Shown piece by piece: positions 41-21,047 of a stretch of DNA of 23,681 bases. This DNA is from a virus. Made by a program: the position numbers and the translations under genes. The stretch lies in IMG/VR virus record IMGVR_UViG_3300019756_000016, positions 1 through 23,681 of that record; one strand, given 5' to 3'. Numbering within the stretch: position 1 is the first letter of the stretch; the number at the start of each line of letters is the position of its first letter. Below the pieces are notes generated by a model that was given only the letters and a program-made list of their open reading frames with translations, was not told the origin of the DNA and ran no database searches.

Positions 41-2983
41 TTATTGTTGTACAATTACGATAAATTGACCATCACAAGCCTCGTAGCATAAAGCACCAGC
101 TGGCACAGCTCCGGAACATGGAGGACAAACAAAATTTACTTGAAATTGATTATCAGTAGGCTCAGTAACAACTAGGTTAGTAGGATTTAAAGAAGTAACC
201 ATTACATCATCTTGTAAATCTGATAAATCTACCGTTACATCAGTAGGACAATCATCTATACCTATTGTTAATTGATTACTACCAGCACTAAACGAAGCAT
301 TCAAACATTGATCATCTGTATCAGTATCTAATGAGCTTAAATCTATAGTTATGTCAGTAGGGCAATCATCTATACCTAGTTCTAGGTTAGAACCATTTAA
401 GCTACCATTCAAGCATTGATCATCTGTATCAGTCATCCCACAAGTAACTGAAGTAAGTACAGTACTCATATCAGCTAACACTATCTCTATAAACCCACCA
501 TTACAGTTTAAATCCGATATAACCCCATCGGCTCCACCGCCACCTCCAAGTCCACAAGCATTCAAGTCCTCAACTTCTGTACTACCATCAGGCCATGTAA
601 AAGTAACTACCCCAGCAGCACAAGTAATATCTATATCACCCCAAGCAATGTAATCATCTACATCTACCCAGTCAGCTACACCACCACTTACACCTATAAC
701 CTGACCTTCTGCTCCAGGCACCATTTCTATATTCAATGTATTTCCTGGACCAGTAACTAACCCTAATACTGTCTCAGATTCAGTTTCAAACGAAAGTGTC
801 TCTCCGTTAGTCATTGTTTGAGTAAGTCCAGACTGAGAACCAGCGTTAAATGCTGCAAAATCCCAGCTATAAGCGTCAGCTACACAACTTAAATCTACTG
901 TAATATCCGGTGCAGTCAATAAATCAAACACGACAGTACTAGGATCAGTACAAGTAACTCCTTGTAAGTAGCCATCATTACCTACCGCAGCTCCACATGG
1001 AACAGTAGTGGTTATAGTCGATCCATCTGCTAACTCAATCTCTAATACATCAGATACACAATCTATGTCTGCTATAACACCGTCAGCTTCCTCACATGGT
1101 ACAGTAGTAATAACTACCGAAGCATCATTCATAGTGAACTCTATAACATCATTCACACAAGCCATTGATACTACATGAAGCTCAGTAGAAACATCACATG
1201 GCACAGTAGTTAGTATTGTAGCTGGCTGTGTAGTAGTAATCTCTATAAATCCATCCACACAATTCAAATCATCAATAACTAAGTCTACTCCATTTGTACA
1301 AGCTACATCTGTTTCTATAATAGCACCATTGGTAAGGATAATATCAATCTCTGAATCATTACACTCTAAATCTGCTATATAAGTACCAGGATCAGTATTA
1401 ACCACACAACTCATATCTATAATCTCAATTCCATTTGGATCGTCCTCTAATTCTAAGGTTAGAATACCTGATGTACAGTTCCAGTTTGCATTTAGCGTCT
1501 GATCATCTGTATCTATAAATTCATCTCCACATGGGATTGAAGTAGTTACAGTACTCGCATCTGATAATAAAAGCTGTACAAGCCCATCAGAGCAAGATCC
1601 GTTAACAACATAAACGTCAGGACCCATATCGCCACCAAAACAAGTACTTAAGTCTACCGTCTGTACTCCACCACCATCTTCTAATTCTATAGAAAGTTCT
1701 CCAGTTACACAATCAAGATTAAAAGTTTGTATTTGTTGATTATCAGAACTTTCACCGCCTATTAAATCACTTAAATCTAACTGCAATGGTGGCTCTCCAT
1801 CATCTTCTAATGAAATAAACATAACCGATCCAACAAGAGTAAGTTGATCAATAGTCTGATCATCAGTTCCTACTCCACCGCAAGCGTTTAAATCTATTGT
1901 TGCTGACTCACTACCTACCGTAGCTGTAAATAATCCATTTTCATCACACTCTAATGTCACCTCAGAATCTCCAGCTGCTATACAACTCAAGTCTACTGAG
2001 TAGTCCTGACCCTCCACCATGTCGATTGTAAGCTCGTTTGTCACACAATCAAAGGTTAGGTCATTTATTACATCAATGTCCAGGTTATCTAATGTCACGC
2101 AGACTGGTGGTACATTATCCTGACTTAATGAGATACATAATTCATCCCCTGAGAAATTAAAGAAGTCTATGAATTGTGGATCAGGTAGTGTCTGAGATAA
2201 ATCAACACATTGAGTAGGCTGACCGTCATCTTCTATTGATAAACATAATTGACTACCAGTAATCTGAAAGATCTCAATTTGCTGGTCATCCGTATCAGGC
2301 TCACCATCAGCTCCAGCACAATCTCCAAATGGAATAGTTAAGTTAGGTCCATCCGAAAATATCAACACTAACTCACAATCATTATTGATCGATCCTCCAG
2401 TAACATAATTATCTTCAAATTCATCTGTTAAATCTACTGAATGGATCGTACCATTATTCATTGTTAATAATAGATCAGTACCAAATAAGTCTAAGTCTAC
2501 AGCAAAGACATCACTTGGATCACTTGGAGGCTTATTAATACATAATAAATCATTAATTAAATCTGAGTAAGGATCAACAAAGTTTATTCTTCTACCATCT
2601 GAGATCGCCACACCTAAAGCCTGATCACTTCCATATTCTTGCATTAATGATATATTACATAAGCCTACTGCACTTCTCCCAGATGTCTCAATCACACCAT
2701 TGGCACTAAACTCTTTTATGTAAGTACAAGTTGAGGCTATAATAGCATCATACGATGTTGATGTTATCAGCTGATTACCTACATCAAGGAAATTTACATC
2801 TTCCCCATTTCTAATTAATATTTGCGCCCTACCATCTGTAGTCTCAAATATGTAAGTGATCTCACATAATGGCACGAGGTATGATTGTCCATCTTCAGCC
2901 AATATGTTTACACTACCAATCTGTGCGTTTAAGCCAAATCCTATAAAGGATAGGATTAGAACTAATAATTTATGTGTTTTCAT
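41..2983 (-). CDS. Secreted, Cys-rich, acidic repeat protein (fibre/adhesin-like), 980 aa
   Basis: The protein starts with a signal peptide (residues 1 to about 20: MK, hydrophobic run, ending LNAQ). An N-terminal domain (about 21-150) resembles that of the 530-residue protein two genes upstream. From about residue 225 it is built of degenerate 35-45 residue repeats of two kinds: 'DDQ...L.ISLEDDG...VDLS', and a Cys-framed 'DxxC...IEI.LxDGS...TTVPC'. There are roughly 40 cysteines, which suits an oxidising, extracytoplasmic location. Residues 152-980 contain no Lys or Arg and are very Asp/Glu-rich. A Gly-rich linker (GLGGGGGA) lies in the last quarter. DDQ-type repeats are known from flavobacterial surface proteins and phage tail proteins. 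The start overlaps the astacin gene by 14 bases. The role is inferred: a long fibre or surface adhesin. It could instead be an exported protein not found in the virion. Confidence 0.75.
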   Translation of the reverse strand: MKTHKLLVLILSFIGFGLNAQIGSVNILAEDGQSYLVPLCEITYIFETTDGRAQILIRNGEDVNFLDVGNQLITSTSYDAIIASTCTYIKEFSANGVIETSGRSAVGLCNISLMQEYGSDQALGVAISDGRRINFVDPYSDLINDLLCINKPPSDPSDVFAVDLDLFGTDLLLTMNNGTIHSVDLTDEFEDNYVTGGSINNDCELVLIFSDGPNLTIPFGDCAGADGEPDTDDQQIEIFQITGSQLCLSIEDDGQPTQCVDLSQTLPDPQFIDFFNFSGDELCISLSQDNVPPVCVTLDNLDIDVINDLTFDCVTNELTIDMVEGQDYSVDLSCIAAGDSEVTLECDENGLFTATVGSESATIDLNACGGVGTDDQTIDQLTLVGSVMFISLEDDGEPPLQLDLSDLIGGESSDNQQIQTFNLDCVTGELSIELEDGGGVQTVDLSTCFGGDMGPDVYVVNGSCSDGLVQLLLSDASTVTTSIPCGDEFIDTDDQTLNANWNCTSGILTLELEDDPNGIEIIDMSCVVNTDPGTYIADLECNDSEIDIILTNGAIIETDVACTNGVDLVIDDLNCVDGFIEITTTQPATILTTVPCDVSTELHVVSMACVNDVIEFTMNDASVVITTVPCEEADGVIADIDCVSDVLEIELADGSTITTTVPCGAAVGNDGYLQGVTCTDPSTVVFDLLTAPDITVDLSCVADAYSWDFAAFNAGSQSGLTQTMTNGETLSFETESETVLGLVTGPGNTLNIEMVPGAEGQVIGVSGGVADWVDVDDYIAWGDIDITCAAGVVTFTWPDGSTEVEDLNACGLGGGGGADGVISDLNCNGGFIEIVLADMSTVLTSVTCGMTDTDDQCLNGSLNGSNLELGIDDCPTDITIDLSSLDTDTDDQCLNASFSAGSNQLTIGIDDCPTDVTVDLSDLQDDVMVTSLNPTNLVVTEPTDNQFQVNFVCPPCSGAVPAGALCYEACDGQFIVIVQQ
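209..424 (-). repeat. Two-copy tandem repeat (36 codons each) near the 3' end of the 980-aa gene
   Basis: Two neighbouring units, 424-317 and 316-209, each run from DDQCLN through GIDDCPTD to VDLS/IDLS. They are alike at DNA level: 'atcatctatacct' and 'cattgatcatctgtatcagt' or near copies occur in both. The other repeats of the gene match only at protein level, so this is the most recent duplication in the array. Confidence 0.7.
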
Positions 2984-3671
2984 TTAACTTTTTTATTATG
3001 TTGTTAATTGTATATGCCTTTAAATCTTTTAATTTCTGATCAGGAAACATCTCTCTTAGTCTATTAATGTCTCCTATTGATAATACCTTATTTTGATAAC
3101 CACAGTTCTCACCGTCTACCGTCCACTCACATGGAATATAATACTTCATTATAGAATCTACATCCATAGGTGTTTCATCGTAATGATGTTCCTGGTAATG
3201 AAATAAGTTATTATCTACTTCAGACTTACCCCACCCTATTTCTTTAAATGCTGCATAAACTTTAGGCTTATCAAAGTTGATACCTCGTATATGCTCGTGA
3301 GAGAAGTTTAAAGCATGAAGCCATTCATGAACTACATTAGATTGCTCTTCCTGATCGTACCATCCTATATTCATAGTAGGTAGCCAAGAACTAACAGCTA
3401 GACAATCAGTTCCTACGTAGCTCCATGATCCATCTGCTACATTAAAACTTATTCTGATTAATCCTGGATTATCACCCATTTCTTCAACTATTCGCAACCC
3501 TGGCACTTCATCCAAGATTCTCTGTATCCCTTTTCTGACGTAATCTCTCTGAAACATAGAACCACCTATAAAACTATAGGTGAACAATGTATCGAAAGGC
3601 CAGTACTTTCCTTTAGGGTTTATCGCTCTAGCTACATCTTTGTAAATCTGCCTTGTATAATGTATTCTCAT
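2970..3671 (-). CDS. Astacin-like zinc metallopeptidase (family M12A), 233 aa
   Basis: Residues 115-127 read HEWLHALNFSHEH. This is the astacin zinc signature HExxHxxGxxHE with Asn in place of the usual Gly; His115, His119 and His125 are the expected zinc ligands and Glu116 the catalytic base. The Met-turn follows at 173-177 (SIMKY, astacin SxMHY), with Tyr177 at the position of the astacin switch tyrosine. The preceding strand (GSWSYVG...PTMNIGW, about 81-104) also fits the family. The chain ends soon after the catalytic domain, with no added domains. No signal peptide is visible, unlike the genes on both sides. It starts two bases after the upstream fibre gene and overlaps the next by 14 bases, so it is clearly part of the same operon. 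Likely roles are maturation of the neighbouring fibres or digestion of host surface protein; the substrate is unknown. The family call is firm. Confidence 0.88.
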   Translation of the reverse strand: MRIHYTRQIYKDVARAINPKGKYWPFDTLFTYSFIGGSMFQRDYVRKGIQRILDEVPGLRIVEEMGDNPGLIRISFNVADGSWSYVGTDCLAVSSWLPTMNIGWYDQEEQSNVVHEWLHALNFSHEHIRGINFDKPKVYAAFKEIGWGKSEVDNNLFHYQEHHYDETPMDVDSIMKYYIPCEWTVDGENCGYQNKVLSIGDINRLREMFPDQKLKDLKAYTINNIIKKLNENT

Positions 3672-3673
3672 GC

Positions 3674-4891
3674 TTATGGATATTCTAGTATTACTGTTAA
3701 TGATCCGTAAAAATAAACCGTACCTGACAACACCCCACCAGCCTGAACAAAAGGTATTAACATTGTATCCCTATCAGTCGTATAATTAATATTTGTACTT
3801 GATACTACAAATGGCTGGTCATTATCGGTAGTTAAAGCACCAGTAAATGTCGTATTGACATTTAATACTTCTTCATTCCAGTTCTTGTCTACATTTGTAA
3901 AATCTCTTTCTGCCCTCAAGTATAGCCTTACCCCAGTTATAGCCGTACTACTTCTCCTTCCTCCAAAATAAGCAGCCTTAACAGTAGTACCACTAGGTAA
4001 AAATAAACCAGCTGGTGCAATACCAGAACTAAATTGTGGGGTAGCACCATTTCCTTTACCTTGTGACTTACTCGTTTCTTGTCCACTATACCATTGATGA
4101 AATGAATACCAATTATTGGTATTATTACCATACCATCTACCTCCTATGTACCATATTTGCTGACTAGACCCACCACTAGGCGCAGCTGGAACAAAATTAG
4201 AGCCATCGTACTCTAATACATCACCAGTAGTAGGCGTAACCGTAGTAACATCTACATCAGAATGAGTATCTATTGATCCGTCAGCAGTAGCAGTTAGTCT
4301 AACCTCTCCACTTGAGTCATCATAAATGGCTGTAATGCTAGTATGATTAACATGATTGAATTGCGAACCAGTTATATCCTCTATTTCTTCGTCACTCCTT
4401 TGGGTGTCTGTGTCTGTATCAGTCTGCCAATCTGAATTACCCAACTCGGTATCTATAGCAGAAACTATCTCTGATCCGGACTGATCAGCAGTAGCATTAT
4501 TCTCTACTCCATCTAACTTACTCTTATCACCATCTACAAACGGCCCTTCTACAAGAAGAGCTTGCTTATTATCTAATGCAGTTTGAGTAGCTGTACTAAT
4601 AGGTTTATCTAAATCACTCGTATTATCGACATTACCTAAGCCTACATCACTTTTAGTAGTTCCATGTGGGTTAGTGCCATCATCTAATGTTAGTTCACTA
4701 TGATTAGTAGCTCCACCACCTTGACTATTTATGTAATCTGTTAAAGCCTGAAGGCTGAATAAAAAATCTCCAGCAGCCGGATTATGGACCCTGATCAATT
4801 CAACACCAGTAAATCCACTTCTAATGACTCGATCTTGCGAAAACAATCCGCTTGATATAAATAATAGTGATATGACTACAAGGTGTCTCAT
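3674..4891 (-). CDS. Tail-fibre-like protein with signal peptide, 405 aa
   Basis: It begins with a 19-residue signal peptide (MRHLVV, hydrophobic run, ending LFSQ). The middle (about residues 60-170) carries motifs typical of long tail fibres: 'DVGLGNVDNTSDLDKPIS', 'ALDNKQALL' and 'DGDKSKLDGVENNATADQ'. Then comes 'TPTTGDVLEYDGSNFVP' and a Ser/Gly hinge near 240, followed by an aromatic, beta-rich C-terminal domain that could be the receptor-binding tip. The start overlaps the upstream stop in TAATG, which implies translational coupling. A fibre shaft motif behind a secretion signal is odd, because tail fibres normally assemble in the cytoplasm. The fibre likeness is strong; whether the protein is exported, and whether it sits on the virion, is not settled by sequence. 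Confidence 0.8.
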   Translation of the reverse strand: MRHLVVISLLFISSGLFSQDRVIRSGFTGVELIRVHNPAAGDFLFSLQALTDYINSQGGGATNHSELTLDDGTNPHGTTKSDVGLGNVDNTSDLDKPISTATQTALDNKQALLVEGPFVDGDKSKLDGVENNATADQSGSEIVSAIDTELGNSDWQTDTDTDTQRSDEEIEDITGSQFNHVNHTSITAIYDDSSGEVRLTATADGSIDTHSDVDVTTVTPTTGDVLEYDGSNFVPAAPSGGSSQQIWYIGGRWYGNNTNNWYSFHQWYSGQETSKSQGKGNGATPQFSSGIAPAGLFLPSGTTVKAAYFGGRRSSTAITGVRLYLRAERDFTNVDKNWNEEVLNVNTTFTGALTTDNDQPFVVSSTNINYTTDRDTMLIPFVQAGGVLSGTVYFYGSLTVILEYP

Positions 4892-6483
4892 TATTTAATT
4901 AGCTTGCCACTAATCCAAAAGTTTGCGCCTGGGCTAACTGACAATAAGTGGGTATTTGATGGCATAAGCCTTCCTCTTCTCTCAATAATACCTCTCATTA
5001 ATACGTCAGGTGTACCACGTATTGTACCAGCTTCATCAAAAAATGATAGTAATATTCCAGTTGAATTACCGCCTTGACTCCTTATATCGTGCCACCTAGT
5101 CGTTCCTAATGCTTGGTGATTAAAACCATAACTTACACCTTGGCCATATAGTTGAGGTCCATCTACATCTAAATAATTCGACACCCATGCAAGAGTAAAT
5201 TCAGCATCATTATCTAAACCTGAATAATTAGTGAAAACCCAAGAAGATCCATTGTATTCATATTGAAATGACCATCCATGATCGTAAAATATAGATACAA
5301 CAGTACTGTCAACTCCAGCTGAAACACCAGCACTAATCCCTAGCTGGCGATAAGTTTCATCAGGTGTAATTTGAATATGCGCAACTTTTGATGCATCAAT
5401 ACCTGAGTGATGTAGTGTGAATCCATTTCCACTTGGACTTGATGTAATACTATCAATATTTATTGGCGAATGACTTGCATCGTCTAGTAAGTACCACTCA
5501 CCAATAGTACCAGTTACAACACCATCAAAATCTAATCTAGGGATACAAGATAGCTCCACCTGATGGGAAGTGTCTTGTACATACGTATATTGTTCTTGAG
5601 TCCATACACAATCTCCTTTAGTTATGGTGTATAGATACTTCCCAGTTTCAAAATTGCTATTAAAAGGTAAACTAATTTCATAGGGATCAGTTAAAGAGAT
5701 TCCAGTAAAATCAATAAGTCCAAGATTAGGACGCTGAATTGTCATTAAACCATCCTCAGCTCCATGGACACTAATTTCAAAATTATCTCCTTGTTGCATA
5801 AAAGTTGTCTGCGAAATTTCAGGGTTAAAATCAGAGCAAGTATCTATAACAGTAGAGAGGTCTACCGAAAAATCGGTGCCATCTTCTGTCACAGTAAGAG
5901 TATAGTTCACAGAATCCAATACAAAGGCACTTATAGAAGGTCCATTACCTAAATCGATTGGCACACACACCGGATCTTCGCCATCATCATCCAATGATAT
6001 ACAGAGTAAACCATTAATATAGCTCATATTATCAATTCCCTGATCGTCCGTATCCTGAGAAGGTGCTAAACAGCTAGTAAGGGATGCTATAATATCACTC
6101 ATTTCATCTGATACATTATACTCAGTAGTTTGGTTGCCGTCATAGGACCTAATATCTACTGTACCTCCATAACCAGCCGTCACTTCATGGACTACAGATA
6201 TAGGTAGCAATGCAGTCGTACCACTTACAAGATTAACTTCTAATAGACATTCGCAATCATCAGCAGTCTTTATATCTTCATAAGCTTCGTCTATGATCGT
6301 ACTGAAATTTACATTCCTAGCCCTAAGAAGGGTTTCGTCACCTACTGGTGTTAGCCTTACAATCTGATCATAAGGAATTACCATTTCAACTCTATCTACG
6401 GTGTACTTAAAATGAGAACAGTCCTGAGCAAAACTTAGCCCATAGACCGCCATAAATACGATTATTGATATAATTCTATTCAT
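4891..6483 (-). CDS. Secreted fibre/adhesin-like protein, 530 aa
   Basis: I place the start at the ATG at 6483, giving MNRIISIIVFMAVYGLSFAQ, a good signal peptide, with an 8-base overlap on the upstream gene. Two earlier in-frame ATGs (6510 and 6507, after GAAAGAGG) would add nine residues and remain possible. The N-terminal domain (about 25-150) resembles that of the 980-residue protein; it is followed by one 'DTDDQ...LLCISLDDDGEDPVCVPIDL' repeat near 145-180. The C-terminal half is beta-rich, rich in Gly, Ser and aromatics, and shows no enzyme motif. Lys and Arg are present throughout, unlike in the 980-residue protein. Its stop overlaps the next gene in TAATG. Probable role: an exported fibre or adhesin; no specific family recognised. 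Confidence 0.7.
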   Translation of the reverse strand: MNRIISIIVFMAVYGLSFAQDCSHFKYTVDRVEMVIPYDQIVRLTPVGDETLLRARNVNFSTIIDEAYEDIKTADDCECLLEVNLVSGTTALLPISVVHEVTAGYGGTVDIRSYDGNQTTEYNVSDEMSDIIASLTSCLAPSQDTDDQGIDNMSYINGLLCISLDDDGEDPVCVPIDLGNGPSISAFVLDSVNYTLTVTEDGTDFSVDLSTVIDTCSDFNPEISQTTFMQQGDNFEISVHGAEDGLMTIQRPNLGLIDFTGISLTDPYEISLPFNSNFETGKYLYTITKGDCVWTQEQYTYVQDTSHQVELSCIPRLDFDGVVTGTIGEWYLLDDASHSPINIDSITSSPSGNGFTLHHSGIDASKVAHIQITPDETYRQLGISAGVSAGVDSTVVSIFYDHGWSFQYEYNGSSWVFTNYSGLDNDAEFTLAWVSNYLDVDGPQLYGQGVSYGFNHQALGTTRWHDIRSQGGNSTGILLSFFDEAGTIRGTPDVLMRGIIERRGRLMPSNTHLLSVSPGANFWISGKLIK

Positions 6484-6709
6484 CACCCTTATTTTCTTTA
6501 GTTTCATCATCCTCTTTCTTAGTTAATGTAGGCTCTATTTTGTATTTCCATAACCATCCACCAAAGCCAGCAAACAAAGCACCTACCATGGCAAGTATAG
6601 CTGCCCTGGAAGCCTCCATAAAGATTGAGGACCCAAAAAAAGCAAAGGCATAACCATATAGCATATTTTCAATGTCCATTAATTCTTGTTTTAATAATTG
6701 ATAATTCAT
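6476..6709 (-). CDS. Holin-like small membrane protein, 77 aa
   Basis: Two hydrophobic segments are visible, residues 17-31 (LYGYAFAFFGSSIF) and 36-54 (AAILAMVGALFAGFGGWLW), followed by a strongly charged C-terminal tail (KKEDDETKENKGDE). Size, two membrane spans and charged tail fit a class II-like holin, which would make pores in the inner membrane to time lysis. No endolysin is seen in the window, so context support is weak. It might instead be a minor membrane protein of another kind. It ends in TAG, which lies inside the first codons of the next gene. Confidence 0.5.
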   Translation of the reverse strand: MNYQLLKQELMDIENMLYGYAFAFFGSSIFMEASRAAILAMVGALFAGFGGWLWKYKIEPTLTKKEDDETKENKGDE

Positions 6710-6747
6710 AATATCGTGTTTACTAGCTATGCTTTATTTTATTTTAT

Positions 6748-7002
6748 TTATTCTTCGTTTATAACTTCTCCATTCCTCGTTTCTTGGAATGGGCTTGTTA
6801 AACTTGCATTAAATCCTTTCGCTTCAATAACCTCTTCAACTCTAAAATACTTTGTATTACCTGTGCTTAGGTTTTCAACTTTTATTATTGGCGATGCAGT
6901 TACTAAGTGATCAAGAGTTAAATTCCTTAATGCAGCTTTTATACTTGCTTTGTTGTTTAGCGTTATATCGTGCGCTCCACTTGTAATTCTATAATTTGCC
7001 AT
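6748..7002 (-). CDS. Hypothetical small protein, 84 aa
   Basis: No family recognised. The protein is soluble-looking, with no signal peptide, membrane span or cysteine. It has a mixed N-terminal half (ITSGAHDITLNNKASIKAALRNL) and an acidic end (NGEVINEE). It lies between the small fibre paralogue and the holin-like gene, with 15- and 38-base gaps and an A/T-rich leader (TATAAATT) before the ATG. Position suggests a late gene, perhaps a minor virion or fibre-assembly protein, but nothing in the sequence confirms that. Confidence 0.55.
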   Translation of the reverse strand: MANYRITSGAHDITLNNKASIKAALRNLTLDHLVTASPIIKVENLSTGNTKYFRVEEVIEAKGFNASLTSPFQETRNGEVINEE

Positions 7003-7017
7003 AATTTATACTTGTTT

Positions 7018-7521
7018 TTATTCTTCAAATAATATTGACCACCAAGACCCATTCCAATTAGTACTTAATGTATTATTTACCCTTAACTCTAATGATGCTC
7101 CATCAGGAATAGATGTGTTTAAATCAAAAGTAAACACCGAAGCAACAGCATCACTATATAATACGGTAACAGTTTCCTGTAAGACACTATTCACCCATAC
7201 TTCAAGTTCTAAAGACCCTGATGAACCAGCGCTTCCACCATACCTTAAAATTACCTTTTTTATGGTACACGCTAAAGGCGAATAATATATTGTTGTGAAA
7301 TGACCATAATTTAATGGGGAGGAATAAAGCCCATAATTTAAAAAGTAATCGTTAGCATTAGAGGCAAAGAAACCTCCATTTACACAGAAACTTGATCCCC
7401 CTGATCCCCCTCCTGCTAAATCAGCAATAAATTGCGTAGTAGTTAGTTGGTTACCTCCTGCCTCATTAATTAGCTGAATATTTTCAGTCCCATCTAGTGT
7501 TGACTTTGTAGGGTGTGCCAT
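7018..7521 (-). CDS. Small fibre / receptor-binding candidate, paralogue A, 167 aa
   Basis: The first 39 residues (MAHPTK, LDGTENIQLINE, GGNQLTTTQ, DLAGGGS) nearly match those of the next gene upstream. This kind of 'xIxLxxxxGNxxTTxxxIxDLA' start is common in phage tail and baseplate proteins and probably anchors the protein to the tail. A Gly-rich hinge follows, then a 125-residue beta-rich head that has diverged from its paralogue but keeps landmarks (VNGGFF, KKVILRYGG, final WWSILFEE). Likely role: host recognition. No catalytic motif is seen. Confidence 0.6.
   Translation of the reverse strand: MAHPTKSTLDGTENIQLINEAGGNQLTTTQFIADLAGGGSGGSSFCVNGGFFASNANDYFLNYGLYSSPLNYGHFTTIYYSPLACTIKKVILRYGGSAGSSGSLELEVWVNSVLQETVTVLYSDAVASVFTFDLNTSIPDGASLELRVNNTLSTNWNGSWWSILFEE
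7405..7521 (-). repeat. 5'-end duplication, copy A
   Basis: The first 39 codons of this gene match those of the neighbour at 7969-8085 at DNA level (shared 'agttagttggttacc', 'atattttcagt' and 'gtagggtgtgccat' on the plus strand). The remaining gene bodies match only weakly as protein. Confidence 0.8.
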
Positions 7522-7533
7522 AATTTTTATGTT

Positions 7534-8085
7534 TTATATCTCTTCAAAATATGCTGACCAGACAAGATTGCCCCAAGATACACCAGTAAAAGTTCCACTT
7601 ATATGTAAAAAAACACCCCTCCCAGGTGAAGCGACAGCCGAAGATGTAAATGTAAATTCGTAAACTGATTCGCCATTTACCTCGGCAATATCCGCAGTAT
7701 AATCAACCGTTTGAGACTCAATAGATGAAGCACCAGAGCCTGTGGTGTTCCGCTCTTGGAAATCGACTGTAATATCCCCATCTGATAAAGCTGCTCCAGT
7801 CAATGCAACTACAACTTTTTTTAATTGTGCAGTAACAGGAACTACAATTGTGTTATATCTTTGTATGCTATTTCCTTCACCTTCTGACGTAATTGGCAAA
7901 TAAAAGTCAGGAGCAGGAACAGTGCTATTAAAAAAAGCACCATTAAATAGAAACGTTGCCTTACTTGATCCACCGCCTGCTAAATCAGAAATAGATTGAG
8001 TAGTAGTTAGTTGGTTACCGCCTATTTCATTTATTAATTGAATATTTTCAGTGCCATCTAACACTAGTTTAGTAGGGTGTGCCAT
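7534..8085 (-). CDS. Small fibre / receptor-binding candidate, paralogue B, 183 aa
   Basis: Paralogue of the 167-residue protein just downstream (12-base gap): same N-terminal 39-residue anchor, a Gly/Ser hinge, and a divergent beta-rich C-terminal domain sharing the landmarks FNGAFF, KKVVVALTG and a final WSAYFEE. It starts one base after the tailspike stop codon. Sharing an anchor while the head varies is the usual pattern for adsorption proteins; the function is inferred from that and from position between the tailspike and the holin-like gene. Confidence 0.6.
   Translation of the reverse strand: MAHPTKLVLDGTENIQLINEIGGNQLTTTQSISDLAGGGSSKATFLFNGAFFNSTVPAPDFYLPITSEGEGNSIQRYNTIVVPVTAQLKKVVVALTGAALSDGDITVDFQERNTTGSGASSIESQTVDYTADIAEVNGESVYEFTFTSSAVASPGRGVFLHISGTFTGVSWGNLVWSAYFEEI
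7969..8085 (-). repeat. 5'-end duplication, copy B
   Basis: Partner of 7405-7521; see that entry. The two copies lie 564 bases apart in direct orientation, so recombination between them could delete or fuse a head domain. Confidence 0.8.
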
Positions 8086-8086
8086 A

Positions 8087-9748
8087 TTATTTTACATTTG
8101 TATCTCTGATAATAGCAGTCACTTGCTCTGTAATATTTGCATCAGTAGATAAAGAGTTAGCAAAGCAGTTTTGAATTTTAACGTTGTATGCTCCAGCATC
8201 TAAACTTTGTATATTTACAGAAGCTGCGTCATTGATAAAAGTACAGTTTTCAAATATAATATTATCCGCACCTGTTCCTGTTATATTTTGTATAGATACA
8301 TTTGCACTACCTGCATCATTACAAGTAAATCTACAATCTTTAAATCTTATTTCTGAATTTGCATCCATTACAAGATCTTTAATTACAACATTAGCATTAT
8401 TATCTGCAGTAAAATCTCCAGTAACTAATATTTTACCATTAGTCATATCTATATCGTTAGCACCAGAAGCACCAATTTTAAAGTTGTTACCCTCTGCACT
8501 ATAGGCAGTATCTACTTTACATAGAATAGTAGTGTTATTGACATATACATGCTGACCAGCTCCTAAAAAACATGGGAAGTTAAAAGTATGCTTTGGAGAA
8601 ACTACGTCTCCTAAATCATAAACTACATTCTCATAATAATTTGCACTGACAGTGGGGAATGTAGTAGATACCATACTGAGGCCTGCGGTGTTAGGGTCTG
8701 TGAGATCAGAGAAAGAGGGTGCAGTACCGTTATCTATTATCTTATCAATTCTCCAAAGAACTTGAGTACCAGAACCGTCGAAAGATTTATCTGTCCAGAT
8801 AGCATTACTATCCATCCCTGCCTCTATATTCAGCTCTCCTACATCATAGATAAAGGTTGAATTGGTTACAGCTACGCTTTGTTCCATTTGAATCCTAAGA
8901 ACTCCTAATCCATTTCCTAGACTAGGACTAGCAAAAATTCTATTTACTTTTAATCTGTTGTATGCTCCGTCTTTTACTGCTGTAGGTTGAGAGTTAGTAA
9001 AAGAACATGTAGTTTCACCATTCTGACCTGTAATATCGTCTACTTCTAAATCAAATAGATCACAACCTACTTGGATAACCCAAGATCGTCCTGAACCTGA
9101 TTGATTTAAATCTCCAACTTTACCTCTAAAACTAGAATCAGGATGGTACATACCAATCATTAATGGAATAGAACCTCCATTGTTAGAATTAAAATCTACA
9201 TAAGGAGCTTGTACTTCAAAGTTTCTTTGCTCAAAGGTACCAAATGTAGCAGACACAACGTCAGTCCATAAACTATATTGACCATCTCCTGTTGTAGAGA
9301 AGGTTGTACCTGGATCAAATAAAAATGAAGCAGCAGTTGCTGTACCACCAAAGGTAGCTTCTGCATTATTACCTTGATTATCTACTACATGAGCGTAATC
9401 AGCTTTAGTTATGTAAAACATATCTCCAGCCGTTACACTTACATCTCTATTAGCAGCGTGTAGTGATTGAAAAGGTAAAGTTCTAAAACCTTTATCTCCT
9501 GTACTATCATCTCCAAAAGGATTTATGTAGTATACATTTTCATATTCTACATCTGCTCCACCTATACCTTCACCTCCATCTTCTCTGCTTTGAAGTTCTT
9601 GAGTTAGGAGGCTTGAAAATTTAACTACACCTTCTCCAGGATTAGCACCGTCATTGTCTAATCCAGTTAGTGAGCCACTACCACATTTATTTCTGGTCGG
9701 CTTCTTACCTAACTTTAAATATACGTCTTGTTTTGAACAGTCAGCCAT
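8087..9748 (-). CDS. Tailspike with parallel beta-helix, 553 aa
   Basis: I take the ATG at 9748, whose A is the last base of the upstream stop (TAATG); a TTG two codons earlier is less likely. Residues 1-70 form a probable virion-attachment part. About residues 73-99 (VYYINPFGDDSTG...PFQSLHAA) is the usual opening of pectate-lyase-fold tailspikes ('GxDxxxGxxxxPFxSLxxA'). The rest, above all the last 150 residues, shows short beta-strand rungs (VVIKDLVMDANSEIRFKDC, NIIFENCTFIND, VKIQNCFANS) typical of a right-handed beta-helix. Such spikes bind and often cleave surface polysaccharide; no catalytic residues can be assigned by eye, so enzyme activity is open. It is followed at once by the two small fibre paralogues. 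Confidence 0.75.
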   Translation of the reverse strand: MADCSKQDVYLKLGKKPTRNKCGSGSLTGLDNDGANPGEGVVKFSSLLTQELQSREDGGEGIGGADVEYENVYYINPFGDDSTGDKGFRTLPFQSLHAANRDVSVTAGDMFYITKADYAHVVDNQGNNAEATFGGTATAASFLFDPGTTFSTTGDGQYSLWTDVVSATFGTFEQRNFEVQAPYVDFNSNNGGSIPLMIGMYHPDSSFRGKVGDLNQSGSGRSWVIQVGCDLFDLEVDDITGQNGETTCSFTNSQPTAVKDGAYNRLKVNRIFASPSLGNGLGVLRIQMEQSVAVTNSTFIYDVGELNIEAGMDSNAIWTDKSFDGSGTQVLWRIDKIIDNGTAPSFSDLTDPNTAGLSMVSTTFPTVSANYYENVVYDLGDVVSPKHTFNFPCFLGAGQHVYVNNTTILCKVDTAYSAEGNNFKIGASGANDIDMTNGKILVTGDFTADNNANVVIKDLVMDANSEIRFKDCRFTCNDAGSANVSIQNITGTGADNIIFENCTFINDAASVNIQSLDAGAYNVKIQNCFANSLSTDANITEQVTAIIRDTNVK

Positions 9749-10303: not shown

Positions 10304-11911
10304 TTATACTCCAGCTGCTACAAATAATGCTGAAGGCCCACCTTGATAATTGAAATCGTCGAAAGCAATTCCATTATTGAAATCAGCATCTGCATCTATC
10401 AACCAGTTAAGCAAGACGGCAGCGAGATCTGCTTGTAGGTTAGTAGCTGTCGCAGTTGACGCACCTCCAGGACAACATGCAACTTCAGTTGTAGTTAACA
10501 AGTCAACCCAAAGACTAATGTCTGATTGAGCTGCATTAGCAGTAATCTTAGCTGCTATGTTAGCTACTGTATCACATACATAGTCACAGCAAGTTAAAAT
10601 TGTAACTTGTTTAGGACTATCAGTTGAACCAGAGATACCATTTTCTTCTGTATCGTAGTAATCTATGATTAAAGACGTATATCTAGAGTTAGGGTCAATA
10701 TACTTAACACCTTCAGAATCAGTTAATGATCCTCTGTCTCTATCACTATACATATTGTGGATAGTTCTTTGAACTCTCTTATCGTTTTCAATCAACCAAT
10801 TTCTTCCATGACCTTTACCTTCAAAAGGAGAAGTTCTAGTCAATGCTGGAGCAGGAGTTACGTTGAATCCTTTCTGTAAGTTAACGTTAACGTTAGGCAT
10901 TACATTTGGATCTTCGTCAATTCCTCTATATGTTTGATGCTCTAATCCAATGATTATGAAAGCATCTACATTAGCTGCATCACCTGCAGTTGATAAATCA
11001 ATAGGCTCAATAGTTGAAGAACCAGTGATTGGTGTAGCAACCGCACCACAAGCTGCTGCTGCTGCTTGCTGTTGTACTAAATAAGCTAATGATAATACGA
11101 AAGGAACATCTGCTACAAAGCTAGAAGTATTAGATGTAGAACATCCACTATCTTTATCTACTGCAGTATCTACCTGAAAAGGAATAGAGTCGCCACAGTC
11201 AATTGTTCCTATTGCCACCCCAGAACCACCAGCAATGTTGATAGCTAAAGCTACAGTGTCGTAGTTACCTGCTCTTTGATTACCATATGCATTAGCAAAC
11301 AATCTAGACTGCGTATTGTAGTCAAAAAGAATGTTTTGCAAATAGTGATCTTTAGGATCAGTTGTTCCGATAGCTGTGTAGCAAGGAGTTTCAAAAGAAG
11401 CATCTACTTGTAAACCTGAATAACCCCACTCAGTAAGTATTCTACTAGAGGTCATGTTTGCAAATAGTCTGTATTCAGTGTTGTCACAAGGGTCTGGTAA
11501 ATCAACAACAGCATTGTTTGCCATTACTTTAGGCATACATTTCTGTACTGTTACACTTCTGATATTATCTCTTCGGATGATACCAGACTCTACATAACCT
11601 TTGTCACCTACTTCCCAAGGATCAGCCAATGTAATATTAGATGACACTGGTGTACCTTGAAGAATTTTAATTGCTCTAACTTGATCTGGAGTTTCACCAG
11701 CTGCGATGAAGTTACCATGAGAAGAACCACCATTTCTAGGGTTATGATCCCAAGATAATACACCTAACTGACCATCCGCAATACCTAAAGAGGTAGTCCC
11801 ATCTACTAAAGCAGTACCTTTAGCAAACGCTTGGTCTGAAGTTCCTACTGGACAATAAGCCACTAGGATTTGCTCCATATCAAGTTTATTTCTTCGTTTA
11901 AAATTTGACAT
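10304..11911 (-). CDS. Putative virion structural protein, 535 aa
   Basis: Not recognised as a specific family. It has no signal peptide or membrane span, a basic N-terminus (MSNFKRRNK), and a large beta-rich body with Gly, Ala and Asn. There is an Ala/Gln run near the middle (LVQQQAAAAACGAVA) and 12 cysteines, several in the C-terminal third (TCCDYVC, ACCPGG). The size, its place five bases after the connector-like gene and before the tailspike region, and its own terminator suggest an abundant protein of the tail or head surface. Tail sheath, tail hub and decoration protein were all considered; none can be proven by eye. Confidence 0.55.
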   Translation of the reverse strand: MSNFKRRNKLDMEQILVAYCPVGTSDQAFAKGTALVDGTTSLGIADGQLGVLSWDHNPRNGGSSHGNFIAAGETPDQVRAIKILQGTPVSSNITLADPWEVGDKGYVESGIIRRDNIRSVTVQKCMPKVMANNAVVDLPDPCDNTEYRLFANMTSSRILTEWGYSGLQVDASFETPCYTAIGTTDPKDHYLQNILFDYNTQSRLFANAYGNQRAGNYDTVALAINIAGGSGVAIGTIDCGDSIPFQVDTAVDKDSGCSTSNTSSFVADVPFVLSLAYLVQQQAAAAACGAVATPITGSSTIEPIDLSTAGDAANVDAFIIIGLEHQTYRGIDEDPNVMPNVNVNLQKGFNVTPAPALTRTSPFEGKGHGRNWLIENDKRVQRTIHNMYSDRDRGSLTDSEGVKYIDPNSRYTSLIIDYYDTEENGISGSTDSPKQVTILTCCDYVCDTVANIAAKITANAAQSDISLWVDLLTTTEVACCPGGASTATATNLQADLAAVLLNWLIDADADFNNGIAFDDFNYQGGPSALFVAAGV

Positions 11912-13901: not shown

Positions 13902-15542
13902 TTATGCTATAACTCTGTATGGGTTAAATTCAATTCTACCTACTCTGGTAGTATCCCAAACTGCAAGTCCAGCAGAGGTTTCTCTATAGATACCTAGCTC
14001 CTTGTTATTAGAGTATGCATTAGATCCGTCAGTGATCGCACCTGTTTTAAAGTCATACACATTAGATACTGTAAAGTAAGACTCTACACCACCTTGTGCT
14101 ACGCATGTAATGTTCTCTGAATTTGCACCAGCTGCTTTTTGATCAGTAGCACCGAAATCAAAGATATCCATTGCAAATGACTCTAGAGTTCTGTTAGTTC
14201 CTGGAGCAAGCTCTGGGAAGATCTGTCTGTCATCCTTAATTGGATCATACATTACTTGTAAGATAACTCCCATAGGTAATTTAATGGAAGTAAACTGTGC
14301 ACCAAATTCTAGTGCATTACTATGGAACATTGAGTTTGTAGACTTCAAGAAGTTAGAATCTACATACTGGAACTGAGAAGCTTCTTGTGCTACAAGTCTG
14401 TGGAAGAATTCTGCACCACCTTCACCAGTTGCTAACATAATCTTTCTATCATCAAAAGTTCTTCGAGTCAAGAAGATTTCCATAATATATTCATATAGAT
14501 CAGATAGAGTCAATGAACCGTTGTGTGTTCTAAAGTGACCATCTCTAACGATTTGTCTCCATCCTGGTGGAACTTTAATAGGTCTGTTAGAATCCTGATC
14601 AACAGTTTTCTCTAACTTACCAAATTCCATATTCATTTCAACATCTCTCTCAAGACGTTCTAAAAGTCTAGCTTCTACTGCAGTAACAAAAGTACCTGCC
14701 CAAACTTTCTCAAGGTTACCGCCTCTACCTTTGTTACCAAGGTTTTTAAATGGAGAGTAGTATACATATCCCATACCTACTGCACCATCACTATAAGACT
14801 TACCTCCAGGACCTCCAATGCCGTAACTCATGTTACCGTTCATTCTACGTCCATCTTTCATTGAAGCAATCTCTGCTCTGATAAATTTATCAGTGAACTC
14901 AGTTTTTCTGGCAAAGTTACCAGTCCAAGACTGTAACTGGAACATTTCAGAGAAATGAATACCAGAGTATTTTGTGTTCAATTCATCAGATACTGAAGTA
15001 GTTGCATCTAGTAATTTCTTACCAGGCATTAAGTAATCTACAGGAATCCAAGAGTTTAAATCTCCAGTTTGTAGTTTTACTTCTAATTCAAAAGAGTTAG
15101 CTGATCTTTGTTTTGCATGACCTAGAATCTTTAACATTGGTAAGTTAGCATTCTCAGTCTTTAACACAGTTGGCTCATGAGGCCACTCTCTGTCAATTGC
15201 AATTTTAAATGACAAACCACCTTTACCAGGATAAGAATCTTTAGGAACTAAAAGTTCTGTAATTCTAAATTCTATCTCACCCTCGCCTGTTAACATCCAT
15301 TCGTAGTCATCTGTACCACCTGGAAGTTCAAAGCAGTTGTTCATACCTTTTGTCATGTAGACAAATTTCTTATTCAATAAGTGTGAACCAAGTTTAGATG
15401 AGAAAAGCTGAGCGTTTCTCACACCAAATTTATAAGGTCCATACTTCTTAAACATATGCGAGTGAGAGAACGAATCATAATATGATCCACCTACTGCATC
15501 CCTTTTTACATATGTAAGAGCCGTTTTTCTAAGGTTACTCAT
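13902..15542 (-). CDS. Major capsid protein, 546 aa
   Basis: The call rests on position, right after a scaffold-like gene and followed by a strong terminator, and on content. The protein is 546 residues with no signal peptide, and is mixed alpha/beta. It has a long helical stretch (EARLLERLERDVEMNMEFG, about 295-312) as in the spine helix of HK97-fold capsids, and a helix-rich region near 355-390 (LSDLYEYIMEIFLTRRTFDDRK). A C-terminal beta part includes 'SIKLPMGVILQVMYDP' and 'VGRIEFNPYRVIA'. It resembles capsid proteins of crAss-like and Cellulophaga phages in length and in motifs such as 'KFVYMTKGMNN' near the N-terminus. It probably forms the icosahedral shell. HK97 fold is inferred, not computed. 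Confidence 0.75.
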   Translation of the reverse strand: MSNLRKTALTYVKRDAVGGSYYDSFSHSHMFKKYGPYKFGVRNAQLFSSKLGSHLLNKKFVYMTKGMNNCFELPGGTDDYEWMLTGEGEIEFRITELLVPKDSYPGKGGLSFKIAIDREWPHEPTVLKTENANLPMLKILGHAKQRSANSFELEVKLQTGDLNSWIPVDYLMPGKKLLDATTSVSDELNTKYSGIHFSEMFQLQSWTGNFARKTEFTDKFIRAEIASMKDGRRMNGNMSYGIGGPGGKSYSDGAVGMGYVYYSPFKNLGNKGRGGNLEKVWAGTFVTAVEARLLERLERDVEMNMEFGKLEKTVDQDSNRPIKVPPGWRQIVRDGHFRTHNGSLTLSDLYEYIMEIFLTRRTFDDRKIMLATGEGGAEFFHRLVAQEASQFQYVDSNFLKSTNSMFHSNALEFGAQFTSIKLPMGVILQVMYDPIKDDRQIFPELAPGTNRTLESFAMDIFDFGATDQKAAGANSENITCVAQGGVESYFTVSNVYDFKTGAITDGSNAYSNNKELGIYRETSAGLAVWDTTRVGRIEFNPYRVIA

Positions 15543-16736: not shown

Positions 16737-19382
16737 TTTAGGTTTTTGGGCGTTTTTAGCCTTAATTTCTTGTTCTTTTAGCTCTTTATTGATACTCATC
16801 TCTTTGTCCTTCATATCCAACTCTCTATCTTTTTGAGCTAATTCTTTAGCTTTTATCTGAACATGGTTTTGTTCTTTCATTATTTCTACAGCATCTGGAA
16901 TACCATCTTTATCTAAATCCTTATCTTCTTGACCTATATGCTGGGTAATAGCAGCTTTCTGTAAGTCATAATTACCTTTGATATGAGCCAATTCAATTTC
17001 ATGAGCTTGATCGTCTTCTCTAAACTCCTTCTGCATAGCTTCAATCTTTTGTTGAGCTTGGTCAGCTGCTTGCTGTTGAGCTTGCATTCTTTCTAGTTGT
17101 TTACCAGACTCTACCTTTATCATCTTATGAATCTCTTCAGCACTCATACCAGAAGTAATACCTTTAAGTAAAGCTGACACTGCTTCCATACCTTCTCCAG
17201 CATTTTGACCAAATGAGTGAGCAAGTTGTAACATAAGCTCTTTGTACTGTTGATCTCCACCTGAATTAGTAACATATAATCCTATATCTATAAACTGAAG
17301 ACTCTTAGGAGTTATGTGTAATAACTCTGCGGAACCATCAGGTAGAATATAGTGTAGATAATGATCTTGCTTATCTTTAAGTAAGATCTTCTCTGCGTAT
17401 GTTCTAAAGTTAAGTAAGTAATCCTGATAAATATCTCTCCAGATTAGAGAGTGGTAGTAAAAGTAAGGCTCAGTAATGTGATGGGACTGAGTGATTGCTT
17501 GCTGATTATCTGATACATTAGAAGAGCTGGAAAACTGAGCTTCTCTTTGAGGAGAGATACCCATAGCTTGACCCATCTCTCTGTCTAGCATCTCAGCTAA
17601 TTGTTGCAGATTAAATATGTCGGCAGCAGTCGAAAGAATGTTTGAATTTGATCCTGGAGATCTAGTTGGATTTGTGAGTCCAGATATTCCTGTTTGAGAT
17701 CCTGAATAGAAGTTAATACCTCTACGTTTAGTATAAAGTGACCAAACTGCAATTGGATCTTTGATGAGGTCTCCATTAATATCTTTACCAAGTTCATCTG
17801 GTATTTGATCTACATCAATATCCATTATATAACCTTGGTACTTAGCAAGCTCTCTGTTTTGTATATGTTTTACATAGATATACTGTAGGTAGAAAGGTAC
17901 TGCTCTCTGAAATAGAGAGATAGACTTTGCATTTCTTGCTGTAAATACACCACCTTTAGTAGATAGTGAAAATGTAGAATAAGGTCTCTCTAAATTAGTA
18001 TTCTGGAAAGGTACTTCTCTACAGATAGGATAGACTCCGTCTCCAAGTCTAATAATTTCATATTTTCTAGGAATCCAGATAGTTTCAGCCTCATACTGTC
18101 TGCCATCTTCTTCCCATACTTTCTTAATAGACTTATTTCCAAATCTATTTGTAAACTCCACCTTCTCAGCTCCTCTAGGTATCTTTATCTTATCAGACAT
18201 CATAACTGTAATGGTTTTACCCATTTCATCTTTGTAAGATAAGTAAATGACAGGCTTATAAGCTTTAAACTCAAAGTGAGTCTCCCATACTAGAGAATCC
18301 CCTCCAATAGAGGTGTTAGTAGAGTTATCTTGTGCTAAACCAACTTTCTTATCTCCATACCCTTCTCCTGGTCCATTTACTAGAGATACTGCTAGGTCTG
18401 TGTCAAGTGTATCAAATACAGGTCTAGCTATACCTTCTGCTACACTATGTCTAGAATCAGGCCTATGATTTCTAGCGTAAGTATCTAAACCTAAATCCAT
18501 GATATCTCTGTCACTTAAATAATCAGAGTAACCTTCCCAAACTTGGGCTGGAGTCAATGGCTTTTTATACCAAATATAATCTCCTTTGTGTATTAATCTT
18601 TCGTTAGAATCTTTATGATATCCTGTATATAAAGTGTTTCTAACTTCTAAGTGTGGTTTACCATTTTTCCATCCTGAGTATACAAAAAACTTATCGTCCA
18701 GTATCATATCTATTAAAGTATCCATACCTTTTAACTTGGCATCCTGGTCTACTTTACAGAACTTAAGTACTTTGTTATAAAATATCTCCCATTCTGGAAG
18801 GAAGTCTTTTGCCATAATATCTTGAGGGGTAGCTTGAGTTCTTAACTCTTGCATAAGCTGCTCTATTTGAGTAGGCTTCATACCTTGTGCTTCTGCCTCA
18901 ATCTTTTCTAATTCTAAGACTATTTCTTCGTCAATAGAAGCTTTCAAGGCCTCTATCATTGCTTTGTTCTTTTCCTTAATAGCTTTATCAGACATCAACA
19001 TTACTTTCATTGAGTCTGATCTTTTTAAGTATTCCCCTGCTAGTACATTTACTTTGTTATGCAGGATTGGGTAAGCTAAGGGTTGTTCTTCTATCTTTGC
19101 TACTTCATCCTCTCCTAGAGGATTACAAAACCAATCTAGGTTAGCTTGTAAGCCAGATAAGTCACCGTTGTATATCTCATAGGTTAACTTACTCTCTGCG
19201 TAGTTATTAATAGTAGAATCATGACTAGGCACTACATGCTCCATGTAGTTTATATACCAGTCCTTAGTCTTTTTAGAATCAGGAATCTTTAAGTTGAAAA
19301 CAGGGTCGTTAGAGACCCCGCTTTCATTGTTAAAGAATCTAGCATTATCCTCCGAATAACGGGTTTTTCTGACTTTGCTCAT
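16725..19382 (-). CDS. Portal protein, 885 aa
   Basis: The large, mainly helical protein has an N-terminal part with 'INNYAESKLTYEIYNGDLSG', a phrase type seen in portals of Bacteroidota phages, and 'HNKVNVLAGEYLKR' (about 106-119). The body contains beta-strand and helix segments fitting the clip, wing and stem, though domain limits cannot be set by eye. The last 120 residues (from about 766) are a Gln/Lys/Glu-rich coiled coil. This is broken at residues 822-833 by a perfect EF-hand-type loop, D-L-D-K-D-G-I-P-D-A-V-E. Portals form the dodecameric ring through which DNA enters. It lies between the terminase/chaperonin genes and the scaffold, and its start is buried in the last 38 bases of the chaperonin gene. 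The extra length over classical portals (400-600 residues) is typical of crAss-like types. Confidence 0.8.
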   Translation of the reverse strand: MSKVRKTRYSEDNARFFNNESGVSNDPVFNLKIPDSKKTKDWYINYMEHVVPSHDSTINNYAESKLTYEIYNGDLSGLQANLDWFCNPLGEDEVAKIEEQPLAYPILHNKVNVLAGEYLKRSDSMKVMLMSDKAIKEKNKAMIEALKASIDEEIVLELEKIEAEAQGMKPTQIEQLMQELRTQATPQDIMAKDFLPEWEIFYNKVLKFCKVDQDAKLKGMDTLIDMILDDKFFVYSGWKNGKPHLEVRNTLYTGYHKDSNERLIHKGDYIWYKKPLTPAQVWEGYSDYLSDRDIMDLGLDTYARNHRPDSRHSVAEGIARPVFDTLDTDLAVSLVNGPGEGYGDKKVGLAQDNSTNTSIGGDSLVWETHFEFKAYKPVIYLSYKDEMGKTITVMMSDKIKIPRGAEKVEFTNRFGNKSIKKVWEEDGRQYEAETIWIPRKYEIIRLGDGVYPICREVPFQNTNLERPYSTFSLSTKGGVFTARNAKSISLFQRAVPFYLQYIYVKHIQNRELAKYQGYIMDIDVDQIPDELGKDINGDLIKDPIAVWSLYTKRRGINFYSGSQTGISGLTNPTRSPGSNSNILSTAADIFNLQQLAEMLDREMGQAMGISPQREAQFSSSSNVSDNQQAITQSHHITEPYFYYHSLIWRDIYQDYLLNFRTYAEKILLKDKQDHYLHYILPDGSAELLHITPKSLQFIDIGLYVTNSGGDQQYKELMLQLAHSFGQNAGEGMEAVSALLKGITSGMSAEEIHKMIKVESGKQLERMQAQQQAADQAQQKIEAMQKEFREDDQAHEIELAHIKGNYDLQKAAITQHIGQEDKDLDKDGIPDAVEIMKEQNHVQIKAKELAQKDRELDMKDKEMSINKELKEQEIKAKNAQKPKESK

Positions 19383-20781: not shown

Positions 20782-21047
20782 AATTGTTGATAAATTTTAT
20801 AAGCCTCTGCTCCTTTAAGAGTGCAAAGTTTAGTCTTGAACTCTGCGCTACTTTCAGGATTAAATAATAAGTTTCTGTAAAAAACTTTATAAAATCTTAA
20901 TTCTTTTTTTCTAATGTTGTAACTTAATTTAAAGTTACAATTGCTTTGTTTACAGTCCCAGGATTTAAATACCTTTACATTAGATCCTTTAAACTTATTG
21001 TACTGAACCCACTCTTGCTCTAGTATTAGATCAACCATACTTTTCAT
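20778..21047 (-). CDS. Hypothetical small protein, 89 aa
   Basis: Not recognised. The basic protein has three cysteines (CKQSNC, then KLC) and a helix-forming end (KGAEAYKIYQQL). The start overlaps the terminase by 17 bases (an ATG at 21038 would overlap by 8), and the stop overlaps the chaperonin start as ATGA, so translation of all three genes is coupled. The size is near that of GroES, but no GroES mobile loop or beta-barrel pattern is visible, so I do not call it a co-chaperonin. Confidence 0.6.
   Translation of the reverse strand: MKSMVDLILEQEWVQYNKFKGSNVKVFKSWDCKQSNCNFKLSYNIRKKELRFYKVFYRNLLFNPESSAEFKTKLCTLKGAEAYKIYQQL

Follow-up and report, generated by a model that had tools for sequence, protein, structure and literature searches.

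The window analysed here is the whole 23.7-kb stretch of a virus record (IMG/VR IMGVR_UViG_3300019756_000016), part of the genome of an environmental crAss-like phage of Bacteroidota bacteria, and one of its genes encodes a 980-residue protein in which the last 829 residues contain neither lysine nor arginine. We propose, with a probability of roughly 0.55, that this member of the phage's tail-fibre block is exported and serves as an acidic fibre or stalk.

Composition of the 980-residue protein

The protein is encoded in a single unbroken frame on the minus strand (positions 41 to 2983). A preliminary description of this DNA had reported 829 consecutive residues without Lys or Arg, and the count proved exact: these residues occur only at positions 2, 5, 52, 58, 90, 103, 131, 132 and 151 of the protein, and residues 152-980 (window positions 44-2530) hold none. 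The same region contains 110 Asp and 45 Glu (155 acidic residues) together with 38 Cys, and the strongly negative charge that the description had expected is borne out by a computed net charge of about -155 at pH 7 and a computed pI of 4.05. The whole protein has three His, at residues 4, 181 and 603. Trypsin sites, which by the inference of the description the region should lack, are missing altogether from residues 152-980, and because a Pro comes directly after K151, trypsin would really leave a C-terminal piece of 848 residues. Five tryptic peptides of 6-32 residues are left, from the N-terminal ~110 residues of the mature protein. As these would in principle be detectable, the protein would be poorly visible to trypsin-based methods rather than invisible.

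A chance origin of the Lys/Arg-free run is excluded at any ordinary content of these residues. The probability of such a run is 3e-19 at 5% Lys/Arg and about 8e-22 at 5.7%, the content of the other tail genes of the window being 5.5%; it is 3e-7 at 1.8%, the level found in related repeats elsewhere, and 0.7% at 0.6%, the level of the most depleted host relative. Among the 396 ORFs of the fetched loci, a set chosen for relatedness and thus biased towards relatives of this protein, 829 residues is the longest such run, followed by 511, 431 and 282, with a median of 33. The region does not derive from recent copy-and-paste. Its repeat units share a mean pairwise identity of 20%, and 393 of its 829 codons sit one base away from a Lys or Arg codon, so that the units diverged without gaining either residue.

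Architecture of the 980-residue protein

The protein can be divided as follows (all on the minus strand).

41 to 2983, minus: ORF of the 980-residue protein with the Lys/Arg-free stretch; its first 14 nt, ATG included, are also the last 14 nt of the upstream protease gene
2924 to 2983, minus: predicted Sec signal peptide, residues 1-20; a cut between ...FGLNA and QIGSV would put Gln at +1 (Q-rule), by a rule-based heuristic
2531 to 2920, minus: N-terminal region, residues 22-151, in which a ~60-aa domain is present in two diverged copies
44 to 2530, minus: Lys/Arg-free region, residues 152-980, by residue count
866 to 2530, minus: repeat units 1-15, residues 152-706, ~36 aa each, of the type TDDQ...LxLxLEDDG...TVDLS
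638 to 865, minus: non-repeat insert of 76 aa, residues 707-782, from the repeat analysis
200 to 637, minus: four more repeat units (numbered 17-20), residues 783-928, from the repeat analysis
44 to 199, minus: C-terminal 52 residues, 929-980, with four Cys (953, 956, 966 and 970)

The duplication of the ~60-aa domain within residues 22-151 is supported by a z score of 6.4 (0 of 500 shuffles), and every Lys and Arg of the mature protein is confined to this region. The Lys/Arg-free part consists mainly of 19 diverged TDDQ repeats of ~36 residues, which resemble beta-hairpins in sequence and may fold as such; AlphaFold models of the repeats were poor (pLDDT 48 for AlphaFold2 with a small repeat alignment, 39 for a single sequence). 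In most units there are two Cys spaced by about 21 residues, e.g., 464-485, 541-562, 575-596, 609-630 and 642-663.

No homologue of the whole protein was found by sequence in phage records, IMG/VR or the PDB, no known fibre matched it in PHROG, the PDB or the phage records at the limits used, and its repeats are matched by no Pfam, PHROG or NCBIfam model. Pfam searches gave neither a sorting domain of the type IX secretion system (T9SS; no Por_Secre_tail match) nor a BACON domain (PF13004). A Pfam nec1 match of 20 bits fell short of the 27-bit cut-off and was attributed to chance composition. RTX-type large acidic adhesins are likewise long, repetitive and acidic, with few Lys and Arg; they differ from the 980-residue protein in using type I secretion rather than a predicted Sec signal peptide, and in having strict RTX nonapeptides. 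A motif scan of the 980-residue protein revealed neither such a nonapeptide (GGxGxDxUx) nor an EF-hand-like motif, so that the suggestion in the preliminary description that the region binds calcium finds no backing in a recognised motif; generic binding by acidic residues is conceivable.

Related repeats in Bacteroidota and in other phages

The units of the window match a consensus found in exported Bacteroidota proteins, TDDQTIDxFxLSGxxLxLSLEDDGxxTVDLS. A match at 49% identity over 78 aa lies in a Chitinophagales genome (L020), beside a 1768-residue protein with an open 5' end, a 431-residue Lys/Arg-free run, 66 Cys and a C-terminus resembling a T9SS sorting domain. Altogether the repeat was found in 8 of 395 Bacteroidia genomes (E <= 1e-5), and one of the proteins, of more than 3204 residues, has 0.6% Lys/Arg and a 511-residue run free of both, the longest among the Bacteroidota proteins as against 829 in the viral one. 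A repeat HMM scored 7e-59 against the 980-residue protein, with the window units themselves among its seeds; a first repeat alignment had been dropped since it collapsed onto overlapping copies. These Bacteroidota proteins (e.g., L020, L031 and L052) share with the viral protein the repeat type, the acidic character, a Lys/Arg content from low to zero and, where the N-terminus is present, a signal peptide, but they are encoded in bacterial genomes and their repeats lack Cys. Some of them, in contrast to the 980-residue protein, end in a phage-tail-collar-like region.

TDDQ repeats are also present in at least three unrelated phages, in one of which (L063) the repeat protein is Lys/Arg-free for 282 residues, up to the end of the contig. 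In the repeats of 15 other repeat proteins, 67 Lys or Arg were counted in 3725 residues (1.8%), and four of the proteins have none. Most homologues thus lack an ordinary Lys/Arg content in the aligned repeats, the finding that would have counted against the preliminary description, but a few small samples reach about 5-7%. As related repeats elsewhere are also poor in Lys and Arg, the depletion belongs to the repeat type, and the 980-residue protein stands at the extreme of a continuum rather than alone.

Genomic context and sister phages

The neighbouring genes and those that identify the phage are listed below.

2970 to 3671, minus: astacin/myroilysin-type metalloprotease, with HEWLHALNFSHEH (3291-3329) and a SIMKY Met-turn (3141-3155)
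3674 to 4891, minus: 405-aa tail-fibre-like protein, predicted signal peptide cut between SGLFS and QDRV; PHROG tail fibre/minor tail matches
4891 to 6510, minus: 539-aa tail fibre, predicted signal peptide cut between YGLSFA and QDCS; TDDQ-type repeats
13902 to 15542, minus: crAss-like major capsid protein (PF23898, E 2e-42), which identifies the phage
21031 to 23391, minus: terminase large subunit, 31% identity over 95% to its counterpart in Cellulophaga phage phi14:2

Three of the 16 ORFs of the window, those of 980, 539 and 405 aa, have predicted signal peptides with Gln at +1 according to a simple rule-based scan, our own heuristic; in all three the Gln directly follows a small-residue cut site. 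This pattern, known as the Q-rule, is the one that the majority of Bacteroidota proteins cut by signal peptidase I follow, and a protective role against proteolysis is ascribed to it (PMC5837995, PMC10653852). Tail fibres and minor tail proteins of Arthrobacter phages share the C-terminal domain of the 539-aa protein (residues 280-537; E 1e-12), and the protein had no match in the IMG/VR scan. Its N-terminal domain resembles that of a protein encoded by another phage, L050 (z 5.1); an N-terminal domain common to the 980- and 539-aa proteins was considered and was not significant. The preliminary description overlooked the three predicted signal peptides, the host-surface repeat family and the probable tail-fibre nature of the cassette. 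Further along, two adjacent paralogues (7018 to 8085, minus strand), both with the N-terminus MAHPTKxxLDGTENIQLINE, are likely small fibre or attachment proteins.

Similar signal-peptide genes occur after the head genes in sister phages and in unrelated Bacteroidota phages. The unrelated cassettes, from IMG/VR, are those of L049 (SU10-type capsid; 3220-8504), L050/L062 (L050 2970-9479) and L063 (7995-10869). As in the window, their signal-peptide genes follow the head genes, with Gln at +1 in most, and one gene encodes a long TDDQ-repeat protein poor in Lys and Arg; they differ in their unrelated heads, in the lack of Cys in the repeats and in the lack of an astacin gene in the stretches examined. 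A CBM5/12 carbohydrate-binding module is encoded by one gene of the L049 cassette. No signal peptide with +1 Gln turned up in the parts of phi14:2, crAss001 and FpV4 that were scanned, and the feature is therefore not general among crAss-like phages. Phage-encoded signal peptides that leave an N-terminal Gln are also known from P. gingivalis phages, whose Q-rule proteins are proposed to alter the host surface in the relevant passages of PMC10367356; unlike the present case, these are prophages, and the proteins, of unknown function, are not described in those passages as fibres or as poor in Lys and Arg. Similarly, the BACON-repeat proteins of crAss-like phages (PMC6949934) are tandem arrays of a Bacteroidota-surface domain encoded near tail genes, but the domain is Ig-like and we found no Lys/Arg depletion reported for them.

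Eight relatives of the phage were found in IMG/VR by means of the capsid protein. Those with a readable tail block encode several proteins at 1.7-5% Lys/Arg, many of them acidic and rich in Cys, so that poverty in Lys and Arg is a local trend with the window protein as its extreme. In the equivalent block of phi14:2 most gene products are virion proteins by MS/MS, and the fibre part has 3.5-8.4% Lys/Arg. One sister phage, G002 (L014 6653-11242), encodes four Cys-rich, acidic, Lys/Arg-poor tail-block proteins that lack signal peptides; a high Cys content therefore does not require export, which counts against the reading favoured below. In two others (L008 12851-13645 and L009 11691-12500), the capsid gene and the head gene that follows it have between them a gene whose product starts with a signal-peptide- or lipoprotein-like segment. 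An inserted ORF at 10996-11847, homing-endonuclease or intron-like, apparently splits the capsid gene of sister phage G004 (L008 9995-12786). A GroEL-like chaperonin gene lies between the portal and terminase genes of the window (19345 to 20781, minus strand), and is also present in several sister phages and, elsewhere in the genome, in phi14:2.

The neighbouring protease

The product of the adjoining gene belongs to the astacin/myroilysin type by similarity (PF01400 above the cut-off; myroilysin, 5e-23), although in HEWLHALNFSHEH the Gly of the astacin (M12A) zinc motif HExxHxxGxxH is replaced by Asn. No signal peptide was detected in it by the rule-based scan, and searches of 50,697 phage records and of IMG/VR gave no homologue. 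The preliminary description found it striking to meet a protease gene beside that of the repeat protein. The two genes do adjoin, with a 14-nt overlap, but the protease gene precedes in transcription order, and the title of PMC3186203 reports a preference of the astacin family for acidic residues on the prime side. As the family favours acidic sites, a lack of Lys and Arg would offer no protection against this enzyme, and the protease does not explain the missing residues; if anything, the Asp/Glu-rich protein would be a candidate substrate.

Discussion

According to the reading that we favour, the 980-residue protein would be made alongside the other structural proteins and carried out of the cytoplasm by the host Sec pathway. 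Signal peptidase I would cut before Gln21, which a host glutaminyl cyclase could convert to pyroglutamate, and the paired Cys of the ~36-residue, beta-hairpin-like units would oxidise outside the cytoplasm. Disulfides are known to stabilise the tail of crAss001 (PMC10172136). The product would be a long, Lys/Arg-free rod bearing many negative charges and acting as the stalk or spacer of an adhesion appendage and most likely joining the virion fibres at or after lysis; as an alternative end point, the rod may be displayed on the infected cell. The loss of Lys and Arg would then be a selected property of the repeat type, which keeps the charge uniformly negative from neutral to seawater pH; protection from proteases specific for Lys or Arg would be a bonus or a second cause. 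We found no experimentally studied relative of the protein, and nothing relevant in the literature on Lys/Arg-free extracellular proteins.

As to where the protein ends up, we put a place in the virion slightly short of even odds, with the cell surface or shedding a serious but weaker contender and any other destination improbable; the slight lean to the virion comes from the position of the gene and the fibre homologies of its neighbours. The protein could instead be absent from virions and be displayed on, or shed from, the infected cell for receptor masking (superinfection exclusion), for binding to neighbours or as a decoy. This is possible though rather doubtful: the signal peptides of its Bacteroidota relatives, its own predicted signal peptide with +1 Gln and the host-surface role proposed in passages of PMC10367356 speak for it, but the gene sits among fibre genes, two of its neighbours combine predicted signal peptides with tail-fibre homologies, and it lacks a T9SS sorting domain. 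We regard it as unlikely that the hydrophobic N-termini are anchors or docking helices of an ordinary tail fibre assembled in the cytoplasm. The position in the tail block would fit, and the gp22 fibre of crAss001 uses residues 1-26 at its N-terminus for docking (PMC10172136), but the gp22 N-terminus is hydrophilic, and the three N-termini of the window have Gln exactly at the cut site, a pattern that recurs in other phages. That the Lys/Arg-free run is an artefact of a frame error or misassembly is highly improbable; the contig does end 40 bases past the stop codon, but 829 codons stay in one frame, with regular repeats and Cys spacing and with homologues in the same frame.

Regarding the cause of the depletion, a loss that confers resistance to proteases of trypsin-like or Arg/Lys specificity, whether environmental or from the host, is in line with the preliminary description, and we consider it a tentative possibility. 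It is consistent with the absence of Lys and Arg, with the Pro after K151, and with the high proteolytic pressure argued to prevail outside Bacteroidota cells (PMC10653852). On the other hand, Phe and Leu sites are not depleted and the family of the adjacent protease favours acidic sites. His is nearly gone from the 980-residue protein (0.2%), L052 (0.1%) and L020 (0.0%), as against 1.5-1.7% in other genes of the window, which points to charge; yet it is kept at ordinary levels in other Lys/Arg-free relatives (up to 1.9% in L031; three His in the 282-residue run of L063), as expected for protease avoidance, and His therefore does not decide the matter. The two causes predict nearly the same sequences and cannot be separated from sequence alone. 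It seems improbable that the two genes form a single system whose astacin-type protease acts on the acidic repeat protein or on a protein of the host surface. The overlap of the two genes and the acidic prime-side preference reported in the title of PMC3186203 would suit it, but a protease that lacks a signal peptide would meet the repeat protein only in the cytoplasm or after lysis, and no homologue of the protease came up in the phage records or IMG/VR.

The surprise lies in the set of fibre-like genes with predicted signal peptides to which this gene belongs. Known crassvirus fibres have no signal peptide (crAss001 gp22, which begins MFFTQEDYRKIEKWL, and those of the scanned stretch of phi14:2), so that an exported tail fibre is without a precedent that we could find. 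As a speculative generalisation, some Bacteroidota phages, including crAss-like ones, might export tail-fibre proteins through the host Sec pathway, with protease-resistant, Lys/Arg-free, disulfide-stapled fibres maturing outside the inner membrane and joining the virion at lysis, i.e., a two-compartment assembly. The unnamed repeat common to hosts and phages merits a family model of its own, and for a long stalk beyond the reach of trypsin, a repeat free of Lys and Arg would be a natural solution. Virion proteomics based on trypsin would under-count such fibres. If the fibres are exported, these viruses would be tailed phages whose assembly takes place partly outside the cytoplasm.
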